Source: Crossaster papposus (taxonomy: Eukaryota > Echinodermata > Asteroidea > Velatida > Solasteridae). Taken from it: a stretch of DNA of 64,000 nucleotides. The stretch's first letter is position 1, and every line of letters begins with the position of its first letter. The notes under the pieces are model-generated. The model did no database searches. It saw nothing but the letters and a program-made list of their open reading frames with translations, and was not told the origin of the DNA. The stretch lies in the NCBI GenBank assembly GCA_037893245.1, contig JBAIAA010000536.1, positions 55,001-119,000 of the forward strand. Reading direction: 5' to 3'. Of the stretch, positions 32,570 through 46,323 are shown piece by piece. The translations under genes and the position numbers were made by a program.

Positions 32570-33205
32570 CTTGTTTACAACTGGTTCGTCGTTCCAGAAG
32601 TGGATCCGGAAGGGATAGTGATTTTCAGACGGATCAAAGGGGCTCCCAAACACTCCTGCCTCCATTATTTTGGTGCTGGTTTCGGATGGTTCGCCAACTA
32701 AAGCTGCCCCTGTGAAATGCTTCATCAGGAGTACGGCGGTCTGGTCTTTGGTAGACACCAGCATGCCGTCGCCGTCTGCATCAAGAGTCTTCCATGATTT
32801 TGACGAGCCTCCTTCGTCATTGCACAACTGTACGTTCAACTTCCACCCGCTCCCCTCCTGGGCAAAGTGTGGGTAAGACAGCACCACGCTGTCCAGAAAC
32901 TTCAGACCTGTTGGGCCGCACTGGATCATCGGCGACAGGACACAGTCCGACGGACCGACCCCGTCAACTGTCGGCGCGTTGGGGTTGACGTAGATATACA
33001 CCTGCTGCAGTCGACCTTTGGGTAGTGCCCCACGGGGGATATACAGGTGGACTTTGTTCTCGTTCAAGGACAGGCTCCCACCCTCCTGGTCGAAGTAACC
33101 GATTGCAATGCACATCAACTGGAAGGTGTTCTTCCTCAACGTCTCTTCGCTGCATCCCTTGGCAAATTGGTCGTGTTTCTCGAGGATCCTTTTCAGGAGA
33201 GTTGG
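32570..33205 (-). CDS. ZU5/Death gene: main part of the ZU5 exon
   Basis: Open from 33205 to the donor gtaaac at 32569. It reads PTLLKRILEKHD, then the ZU5 domain: FDQEGGSLSLNENKVHLYIP, RGALPKG, VYIYVNPNA, SPMIQCGPTGLKFLDSVVLS, and TAVLLMKHFTGA near its end. GG-x-L, IPRGAL and the C-G-P/F-x-x-x-V-x-L-x-x-P/PH region are ZU5 hallmarks. The last residues (FRIHFWNDEPVVNK) look like the first strand of a UPA domain. It ends in phase 0. Confidence 0.85.
33197..33205. repeat. Left target-site duplication GAGAGTTGG
   Basis: 9 bp directly left of the terminal inverted repeat, identical to 46315-46323. On the minus strand it encodes PTL of the ZU5 gene. Confidence 0.95.
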
Positions 33206-33330
33206 TAGTCTTGGTGCAAGACCTTCTTATTTGCGTTTGATACACGATTCCCGCGAGAGGGCGCTATCGCCCACGAACCGCCTCGGGTCGACGATCCGCC
33301 TCAGAAAGAAGGTCTTGGGAAACACGCATT
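33206..33330 (+). repeat. Left terminal inverted repeat, 125 bp
   Basis: Begins TAGTCTTGGTGCAAGACC and ends aacacgcatt. Within it CAAGACCTTCTT (33218-33229) and AAGAAGGTCTTG (near 33307-33318) form an inner inverted pair, and the centre is GC-rich (gagggcgctatcgccc). Confidence 0.95.
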
Positions 33331-33505
33331 ATCTCCTCCCGAAACTAGAAGGAAACAACTACGCATGCGTTAGTTTTTTAGGACAGGGCGGTCTATTATT
33401 CACAGCGCATGCGTATAAACACCATTGACTGTACACAAAAGACTGGTCCGCGCTGCGCGCGCTGAATGGATAAAAGTTAACGTATTGCATAGTTAACAAA
33501 TAATC

Positions 33506-33976
33506 GTGGCTATGGGACTAGGATGCCTGGATCGGCAAACTGCAAACAATAATGTTGTTGCAATGGCGTGCGCTTCAACTTCGGAACGAGAGCGGTTGCA
33601 TGATCGATGGTGTTGTATCTGCAGTAGAGAGTTAATTATCTGCAAGAAATATTTCTCGGTAAAATCAACAAGCGTCAAAGCTCAACGGGACCCTCAATTT
33701 TTGCCTTATTTAATAGATATTTTAGGGGAAACGCTTGATGCAAGTGTGTCACAATACATATGCGGACAGTGTGATAACCACATCAGCAAGATTAGGAAAT
33801 GTGATGCATTAAAACTGAAAATACGATCACAGTTTAGAGACACAAAGTCCAAGCATATACTGCATGGCCGAAGGAAGTCGCCAGTAAGAAGTACACCTTC
33901 CTCGACACCCAAATCACTGGGACCGAGAGACAAGAGAAAGGCGGCCCCGTCTCCAGGAACTCCGTCGACCCGCCGA
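33506..33976 (+). CDS. AcademH-like transposase, exon 1 (zinc-binding N-terminus)
   Basis: ATG at 33506 (another at 33563) to the donor gtaagt at 33977, 157 codons, phase 0. It shows WCCICSREL (C36, C39) and YICGQCDNHISKI (C86, C89), a paired CxxC arrangement likely to bind zinc and DNA. A basic, Ser/Pro-rich tail follows (RKSPVRSTPSSTPKSLGPRD). It starts about 175 bp inside the left inverted repeat, so promoter elements probably lie in or next to it. The choice between the two ATGs is open. Confidence 0.8.
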
Positions 33977-34322
33977 GTAAGTATGCCGGCCGTATGTTTA
34001 ATGTTAGCCCAAGTTACGTTAGTCAATCATCATGTATCACCAGACCAGTAGGCAGTAGTAACACTCTAGTCAACATGAATGAATCAATTTGCAATAGTTT
34101 GCATATATTTTTCGGTTGTAAAAATAATGTACACATGGGGTATTGTGACTGTGGTTAATAGTAGTACTTTCCCTTTCCATAGACCTAGCCAGAGGCCTCT
34201 TTTTTATTTGCTATTTTATAATTAATTATGTTCCAATATGCTATAATATAATCAAGCTTCATACACTGCAATTCCTCCATTGTACCTGTTCTATGAACAG
34301 ACTGATCAAGGATTTTTCAAAG

Positions 34323-43915: not shown

Positions 43916-45985
43916 TCAACTAGCGTTACCTAAAAGTGCCTCTCTAAACTGTTGGAGTTTTTCAGTGAGTGTGAATACTTCTATGTCAGGAACTTTAACC
44001 ACTGTTTGGTCCGTGTAGCGCAATGTCCTGTAGCTGCTGCTCAACATTTGATGGTACAACCGAACAAATTTGTCCATCACAAACACATGTTTTGGCACAT
44101 ACATCACAACAGTTATGTTTAAAAATGGGAACACTTGAGCTATTTGAACTGGTAGGGAAACTGTGTTTGATGACTTCACGTCTGCATCCCTCGCCTCGTA
44201 TGAATTCCTTCATCTCATCTGATGTTTTCAAGCCTGATCCTACACCAGGATACTCGATTATTACAGCTACACTCTGTGATCTATCACGGCCAGCCCAGCC
44301 ACTCAATTGCATTAAGTCATCCAAATCTGTTGGATGACCTATCAATATGACTGTAGGCCTACGTACTCCACATACATCGATGCCAAGTCCAAAAGCAATG
44401 GTAGCAAAGAGGACTCGCACCTCACCATCTTCCTTGGAAAAGCTCTCAATGATACCACGTTGGACTCCATCATCGGTGTTTGTGTGGTACATATTAAAAT
44501 TCCTGTGGCATTCATGTGGTAGCATTGAGCAAAATATTGCATAAAGTTCGCTGACTTGCTTACGTGACTGGCAGTACACGATGATCCTTTGCGTTAGTCT
44601 TTGTTTTTCTTTCACTTCTTCACAAAGCCACTCAAACACCTCATCCAAACTCTTTGATGTCACTTTCTCCACCACATATTTGATGTTATTCCGTTCAGGA
44701 CTCTTCTCTATAAGTCCATAATTGCGCATGGCAAGGCTGTCTACAACTTTCTGCCGGACATTTTTTGTAGCCGTTGCAGTTGAAGCTATAATTGCCGTTG
44801 ATTGATTGAGTACAGAGCGCAACTCTCCTAACTGACTTTAGCATTTCCGAAATGCTGCACTTTGTCCAGATGAATGACCCCTTTAATAAGATACAAAGAG
44901 AAGTACAACAAAAATTACTTTAAATGCATGGGGTGAAGGGGAGAGGGTCGTAGCAGGTTTTTTCCTACTGACAATGACACCAAATAACCTGACGAAGTTT
45001 AGCTGAGGTTTCTCCTACCCGAACACCATATTTTTCTCTGTTGTCCATTTTATTGAGTAGTCCGAGTAACTTTGACCCAAATATCACTTTTTTAACATTT
45101 GGACATGGTTGGGTGATATATATCACCCAACCATGTCCAAAAGTTTTTAAAAATTGATATTTGGGTTCATGTTACTCGGACTATATACCACATCGTACCC
45201 AAAAGGCAACAGTAAAATGTGCCTATTGTTGAATGCCTGACCTTTGCAACTAAATTTAATATCAAAAATTGTCCGATGGTTTTGGACAGTTCAGGTACTA
45301 TTGTACTAGTGTTTGTACAGGTTCAAAACATGTTGAAATAAGTAAAACTGTAAATGCCCAAATTAAAATTGTGAATTTAAAAACAATCTAAAAAACATGG
45401 CGTTCCACTCACCATTTGGATACACAATGGCTTTCATCGACAAAAAGAGCGAAGCATCTCGACTTTACTGTTTAGAGTAATTCTTTACCTCTTGCTCCAC
45501 ACACAGTGTCTCTGGACTAGCGAATATTATGGAATATTTTTGTGAGTGTTCAACTTCAAGAACATCATCTGTCACCTCTGTTGTGATATCTGCGGCGTCA
45601 AGACCAATTTTGTTTAACTCTGTCTAACTGGTCAACGACCAGGGCCTTCAACGGAAGAACGACGATGGCAAGAGCTTTGTTATATATATTGTTAACGTTA
45701 AGTTCTTCACCTTCAAGTTCAAGCTCGTTAGTACTACACTACCGTGTCTTATTTCTCCATACATGTACATGGGTAAAGTACTAGCCCCATGTACTACGTT
45801 TTTCATTCAAGAAATCAAGGATAATCGTTGATGCTTGGAAAATAACACTTTTACCAAATCCCGTGGGTAAATTCACGAATAAATCATGCCCTTGAACAAG
45901 CTGTCTAAGGGCGGTTGTTTGTTGAATTTTTAGTTTTAGACCTAAGTCCTAACGTTTGGGCAGCAAAATCAAGAGCATCATCCAT
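43916..45985 (-). pseudogene. RecQ-like superfamily 2 helicase of the transposon, broken
   Basis: Reads on the minus strand from ATG at 45985. Motif I is NLPTGFGKS (about 45870), motif Ia VVLPLKALVVDQL, an IIFASPETL segment near 45530, the DExH box VDESHCVSKW (about 45440), motif III ASTATAT, motif V FATIAFGLGIDV, and motif VI as QLSGWAGRDR, where the usual first Arg of GRAGR is Trp. A Cys-rich end (HNCCDVCAKTCVCDG) follows. Breaks: frameshifts near 45940, 45612, 45460 and 44000, and an in-frame TAA near 44840. In a working element the protein would unwind DNA during transposition. Introns are suggested near 45490 and 44890; the exon map is approximate. Confidence 0.85.
45059..45182. repeat. 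Near-perfect hairpin in a helicase intron
   Basis: AGTCCGAGTAACTTTGACCC at the left, complement at the right, meeting at gggtgatatatatcaccc. A small MITE or palindrome; it includes a telling tggttgggtgatata centre. Confidence 0.8.
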
Positions 45986-46189
45986 AACGTTCAGCCATTT
46001 TCCACGTTTAACTTGAAATTGTAAACATTACAAGGACGTCAACACACAATTACATGTACACGGAAGGGCACAATTTTATGAGAGTCTGGGAGCCAGACTG
46101 CTCATACATATGCACAAATGAGGTGCGTCACGTAAAATATGCATATTCAATAGATTATGCTAAACGTTATGCGCACGCACGATCAGAAC

Positions 46190-46314
46190 AATGCGTGTTT
46201 CCCAAGACCTTCTTTCTGAGGCGGATCGTCGACCCGAGGCGGTTCGTGGGCGATAGCGCCCTCTCGCGGGAATCGTGTATCAAACGCAAATAAGAAGGTC
46301 TTGCACCAAGACTA
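46190..46314 (-). repeat. Right terminal inverted repeat, 125 bp
   Basis: Exact reverse complement of 33206-33330 as read base by base; sequence diverges on the inner side of aatgcgtgtt (46190). Confidence 0.95.
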
Positions 46315-46323
46315 GAGAGTTGG
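46315..46323. repeat. Right target-site duplication GAGAGTTGG
   Basis: 9 bp directly right of the terminal inverted repeat, identical to 33197-33205. Confidence 0.95.

Follow-up and report, generated by a model that had tools for sequence, protein, structure and literature searches.

A 64-kilobase (kb) stretch of the Crossaster papposus genome (contig C536, positions 55001-119000; hereafter the window) carries a 13-kb DNA transposon that likely belongs to the already known AcademH type and that splits the predicted ZU5 exon of a member of an UNC5-like gene family. We hold the reading as a whole with high confidence: a likely AcademH element was likely inserted recently by means of its own transposase, the target site was duplicated over 9 base pairs (bp), and the gene copy that was hit is predicted to be disabled. 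The case represents a clean, probably young insertion with exact borders, of a transposon type that has been little studied, in an echinoderm. Its unbroken predicted transposase stands next to a decayed helicase, which makes it testable what the AcademH helicase does and if the duplication length depends on it. For the host the event is an ordinary one: a redundant gene family, whose exon is present in at least 26 near-identical copies, loses a member to a transposon. All genome searches reported here cover the contigs of the 1.02-Gb assembly (1841 contigs).

Boundaries, transposase and class of the element

The two inverted ends of the element are identical in 125 of 125 bases and differ at the base that follows. 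Their outer 30 bases were found at two places only in the window, where 100 shuffles gave an expectation of 0. The adjoining 9-mer GAGAGTTGG occurs exactly twice in the 64 kb, once per element border. This count alone is reachable by chance (0.36 expected; two or more in 6 of 100 shuffles), and the weight therefore rests on the position at both borders. An earlier inspection of this DNA, here called the sequence-only reading, had described 125-bp inverted ends with a perfect 9-bp duplication, and both were borne out. The span that it gave for the element, 33197 to 46323, is correct with both 9-mers included, the element proper being 33206-46314. Its description of the transposon as complete was not borne out, because the helicase gene is broken. 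Read by eye, the inverted repeat holds CAAGACCTTCTT as a word, and almost the reverse complement of this word lies further in.

Transposase and RecQ-like helicase had been placed on opposite strands, and indeed DUF6589 was matched on the plus strand, and DEAD and Helicase_C on the minus strand, the latter in the broken gene. The four predicted transposase exons are joined by GT-AG junctions in phase 0 and give 946 codons with no stop. The Pfam DUF6589 match extends over exons 3 and 4 and is split across two frames (E 3e-29 for one exon). Two Diadema setosum proteins (P0001 and P0002) match the transposase at 51% and 50% identity, and the motifs VMDNVD, GDLLTCER and EHxN are kept in all three aligned proteins. 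In our own reading these motifs would hold the catalytic D, D and E. The predicted introns contain two inverted copies of a repeat of about 350 bp (34931-35298 and 37613-37940), which has at least four copies elsewhere in the window (1583-1954, 3933-4329, 23946-24342 and 56457-56814).

AcademH ends are long, and those of the window element measure 125 bp. The lineage is reportedly treated in Kojima 2020, Mob DNA 11:15. AcademH and AcademX are lineages of the Academ superfamily according to excerpts of three papers (PMC10045372, PMC10799480, PMC3627910). The excerpt of the first gives target duplications of 9 or 10 bp for AcademH, and a duplication of 3 or 4 bp together with an encoded nuclease for AcademX, and these lengths seem tied to the encoded helicase or nuclease (PMC10045372). 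The duplications of 9-10 bp that the sequence-only reading gave for helicase-bearing Academ elements are thus found in print. Like AcademH, the window element combines a helicase with a predicted DDD/E-type transposase, a 9-bp duplication and an animal host; it differs in that the RecQ-type helicase gene, although present, is broken in this copy. A 9-bp duplication was seen at 3 of the 3 places where both flanks were in hand (GAGAGTTGG, GCAGCGTGG and CATCATCCA). AcademX differs by its 3 or 4 bp and its nuclease, and a scan of 33206-40500 in all plus-strand frames and of 40000-46323 in all minus-strand frames found no nuclease domain. The element is likely AcademH-like, an assignment made by duplication length and helicase.

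Kolobok elements duplicate TTAA, whereas the window element and the two other sites show 9-bp duplications of other sequence. We therefore regard it as highly improbable that the element belongs to a different lineage with a helicase, for instance a KolobokH-like lineage. A RecQ helicase is present in KolobokH as well, and lies on the complementary strand in one rhodophyte Kolobok (excerpt of PMC9587614), but 9 or 10 bp is the length that the available part of PMC10045372 gives for AcademH.

Table 1. Positions of the element, its genes and the host gene in the window
Feature	Position	Strand	Remarks
DNA transposon, likely AcademH-like	33206..46314		13,109 bp
Left terminal inverted repeat	33206..33330	+	125 bp; sequence comparison and shuffle test
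Right terminal inverted repeat	46190..46314	-	125 bp, same as left; sequence comparison and shuffle test
Target site duplication, left copy	33197..33205	+	9 bp, GAGAGTTGG; minus strand codes P-T-L
Target site duplication, right copy	46315..46323	+	9 bp, GAGAGTTGG
Transposase exon 1 (predicted)	33512..33976	+	Cys-rich region; open too in the C648 and C463 copies
Transposase exon 2 (predicted)	36310..37326	+	conserved VMDNVD motif
Transposase exon 3 (predicted)	38145..38399	+	conserved GDLLTCER motif; start of DUF6589 match
Transposase exon 4 (predicted)	38882..39985	+	most of DUF6589, C2H2 zinc finger; stop at end
RecQ-type helicase gene, broken	43622..45945	-	frameshifts, in-frame stops, GWAGRD for GRxGRD
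Host exon (predicted), first 17 bases	46324..46340	-	after acceptor AG at 46341-46342
Host exon (predicted), remainder	32570..33205	-	ZU5 domain; donor GT at 32569
Further host-gene coding stretch	29745..29870	-	tblastn with Patiria P0003, 62% identity
Further host-gene coding stretch	28414..28599	-	tblastn with P0003, 54%
Further host-gene coding stretch	26799..27080	-	tblastn with P0003, 52%
Death domain exon of host gene	26087..26323	-	PF00531, E 1.9e-10; 68% to P0003

The interrupted ZU5 exon and its family

When the element is taken out and the 9-mer is counted once, the host exon runs on the minus strand from 46340 to 46324 and continues from 33205 to 32570. The rejoined exon is stop-free in one minus-strand frame, against 12 and 5 stops in the remaining frames, confirming the earlier description of an exon that is open from an acceptor at 46341 to the donor at 32569 with ZU5 in frame. 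The ZU5 domain was matched with E 1.2e-19. Against the PDB, the exon matched UNC5B (8.3e-13) and ZO-1 (6.6e-13) about equally, and the order of ZU5 followed by Death in the host gene is UNC5-like. Patiria miniata supplies the best protein matches, the UNC5-like genes P0003-P0006; P0003-P0005 have ZU5 followed by Death, and identity over the ZU5 exon is 74.7%. In the database these genes carry the labels 'Netrin receptor UNC5', 'Death domain-containing protein' or 'uncharacterized'. Across the insertion site P0005 reads GSSSAPPTLLKRIL, with a single PTL, and P0004 has a hydrophobic stretch ahead of ZU5 (by eye). Neighbouring LOC numbers, together with contigs of equal length, suggest that the Patiria genes form a tandem cluster. 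The Crossaster assembly differs from Patiria in its number of near-identical exon copies, one of them split by a transposon.

For the genome search with the left flank of the host exon the best 40 of 2167 candidates were scored, and the copy count is consequently a lower bound. At 90% identity or more there are at least 26 copies, the window copy included, distributed over C536 (4), C591 (3), C441 (10) and C315 (9). The element is absent from all 25 other copies listed. In 23 of them the matches of the two flanks have exactly 9 bases in common, corresponding to one 9-mer. In the remaining two (C441:1522908 and C315:765864) the first bases past the site differ, and the flank matches adjoin and leave no room for an insertion. 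The ZU5 exon copies are clustered; on C536, and likewise on C591, all are oriented alike, whereas on C441 and C315 they form two opposed blocks. Fifteen of the 25 were fetched and read; all 15 are stop-free, and 14 of them keep the acceptor position. Divergence was calculated for 14 of 16 exon sequences, two having been dropped for length. The mean pairwise nonsynonymous divergence (dN) was 0.027 and the synonymous divergence (dS) 0.069 (91 pairs, not independent of each other, one of them identical), a difference that suggests purifying selection on the exon family. A tree of 16 exon copies was almost unresolved, with 2 of 12 inner branches well supported.

No other listed copy exceeds 97% identity over the 906-bp left flank, and the exon alone reaches 98.0% at best. 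Among the matches listed, the closest relative of the left flank is at C591:145k (97%) and that of the right flank at C441:2111k (95%). Two contig pairs of the exon cluster are, by comparison, 99.7% identical, and a second insertion of the transposon present on two contigs is 99.6% identical. Given this gap, the true allele of the interrupted locus may be absent from the assembly. Stretches of C591 and C536 (C591:277k with C536:167k, and C591:316k with C536:410k; 99.7%) were considered as the allele and rejected, as they are not collinear and neither is the interrupted locus. The order of the ZU5 copies was also set aside as evidence of haplotypes, since stretches needed for it are missing.

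We infer a knock-out of the interrupted gene copy. It could be argued that this copy was already a dead duplicate, so that the insertion was without effect. The many exon copies speak for this, as do the matches of sequence downstream of the exon, which are fragmented into many pieces, and a convincing 5' exon or transmembrane segment of the host gene was not found in the window. Apart from the element, however, the exon has no stop and retains acceptor and donor, its dN/dS against 13 other equal-length copies is 0.23-0.62, and the five stretches with matches to P0003 of Patiria, of which the Death domain is one, lie in order with stop-free alignments. We therefore regard an already dead copy as unlikely. 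The sequence-only reading had proposed a recent insertion that knocks out a ZU5/Death gene. Its recent age and its place in a predicted coding exon stand, while the loss would be that of one member of a redundant family.

The insertion cuts the predicted exon 17 bases past the acceptor. Host transcripts would then enter the element on the strand of the dead helicase gene, where termination or mis-splicing is likely. Alternatively, the insertion could be tolerated, with the transcript processed around the element and the protein still made. The minus-strand frame is open from the exon into the element end (to 33226), which makes a shorter or modified exon conceivable. We rejected a frame-rescuing cryptic acceptor at the element end on phase, since the AG nearest the element border differs in phase from the native acceptor (by eye). 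Together with the 13-kb size of the element and a broken helicase gene that runs the same way, this makes a tolerated insertion very unlikely, and a disabled copy is the outcome that we favor.

The broken helicase and the probable recent history of the element

The helicase domains on the minus strand were recognized with E 1.4e-8 (DEAD) and 3.7e-11 (Helicase_C), and the homologs are RecQ-like. Compared to the intact relatives P0011 and P0012, the window helicase has an in-frame stop near 44838 and a frame change near 44000, with two more stops past it. It also has GWAGRD at the position of GRAGRD, GRIGRD or GRVGRD in the five relatives displayed. A further frame change, in the N-terminal part, lies within a contiguous stretch following VDQLDRVKQ. 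The bases at this frameshift (ACAAAATTGGTCTTGA) are common to the copies in the window and on C648, C213 and C825, that is, to 4 of 4 copies aligned. Among the helicase matches listed (75, with the best 74 of 1017 candidates scored), those of this family have six stops on C213, eight on C825, one on C192 and one in the window, each for the stretch scored. The helicases of C648, C463, C349, C424 and C713 are outside the 75, and C648 was read for the N-terminal part. The homologous helicases of Diadema setosum (P0012 and P0013, 45%) are both without breaks in their records, unlike the window copy.

The transposase was found at 28 places in the genome (30 rows, with one row each on C424 and C713 extending a place already counted); one of the 28 is a match of only 90 bases. 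At 14 of them, judged by the helicase matches listed, transposase and helicase lie on opposite strands, converging, within 20 kb. The helicase match is stop-free in nine of these pairs, of which seven span most of the C-terminal domain and two (C896 and C429) part of it. The other five have stops, and these include all paired places of the element's own family (window, C825 and C192). Diadema setosum has a transposase (50-51%) and a helicase, one each on two contigs (42.9 and 30.9 Mb), paired by size alone. A high-copy helicase family (for example on C156, C186, C1188 and C117) accounts for 21 matches listed, at 58-59% to the Diadema helicase; its frames measure 436-437 residues, 20 of the 21 are stop-free and five are on contig C156. 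This may be a further AcademH-like family of high activity.

Counted over 1.6 kb at the left end, 7 substitutions separate the window copy from the C648 copy (1600 aligned bases, 50 gap columns left out) and 7 from the C463 copy (1598, 54 left out), and there are 4 between these two (1623, 4 left out). Flank and duplication bases are common to the C648 and C463 copies, which are 99.6% identical over 2286 bases, flank included; they are therefore likely one insertion on two homologous contigs. The duplication of this second insertion is GCAGCGTGG on C648, and the single C463 flank read starts alike. On C463 the ends of the counterpart are about 23 kb apart (C463:161140-184224), so that some 10 kb of later insertions likely lie between them. 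Greater divergence is seen in the C825 copy, with 92-94% identity at the right end and 98% over the transposase exon. Judged from these substitutions, the helicase-broken lineage likely last moved recently on the scale of variation in the host genome. The end sequence gave at least 57 matches, with the best 40 of 142 candidates scored. At 16 places or more among these matches two ends stand head to head within about 10 bp; these are non-autonomous forms, likely moved in trans. The one fetched, a 202-bp palindrome on C431 built of the two ends, has CATCATCCA on either side.

In the proposed mechanism, the predicted DDE-type transposase would act on the 125-bp ends, and a 9-base staggered cut at the target, followed by fill-in, would yield the 9-bp duplication. 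The element probably transposed while lacking a functional helicase of its own, because one frameshift is common to 4 of 4 copies and yet the window copy shows just the 7 substitutions in 1600 bases to C648. A helicase would likely be supplied in trans by related elements with an open helicase C-terminal domain, or would not be needed. We prefer supply in trans from open copies elsewhere over a stagger made by the transposase alone, as nine relatives and 20 of 21 matches of the further family have an open helicase match. More tentatively, AcademH elements might jump with the usual 9-bp duplication without a working helicase of their own, with the transposase and not the helicase setting the stagger. 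We see this as a possible but doubtful generalization; if true, it would contradict the link between encoded enzyme and duplication length printed in the excerpt of PMC10045372.

Several points weigh against our overall interpretation. Splice sites, both in the transposase and in the host gene, are predictions. The two best transposase homologs, from Diadema setosum, are uncharacterized proteins, and a structure model of one of them (P0001) is unusable, with a mean predicted local distance difference test (pLDDT) score of 30.9. The other element copies were read at their ends only, and the transposase frame seen there is exon 1 of C648 and C463. Thirteen of the 28 transposase places are without a helicase among the matches listed, and one has it in another arrangement. 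Furthermore, unrecognised introns might in principle account for the frame breaks in the N-terminal part of the helicase. This hardly applies to the C-terminal breaks, since relatives read that stretch as one open frame.

Further features of the window

Two regions of the window resemble retrotransposons by eye. On the plus strand, 53203-55320 holds an open frame of 705 residues that is retrotransposon pol-like, with reverse transcriptase, RNase H and integrase parts, and 11964-14926 holds several open frames like the endonuclease and reverse transcriptase of retrotransposons lacking long terminal repeats (non-LTR). A short palindromic repeat lies both inside the element (40555-40727) and outside it (5110-5272), the two copies being 93-96% alike. 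At 2591-3585 there is a tandem repeat with a 106-bp unit in 9.6 copies, which was found on C591 as well, at about 333-336k.

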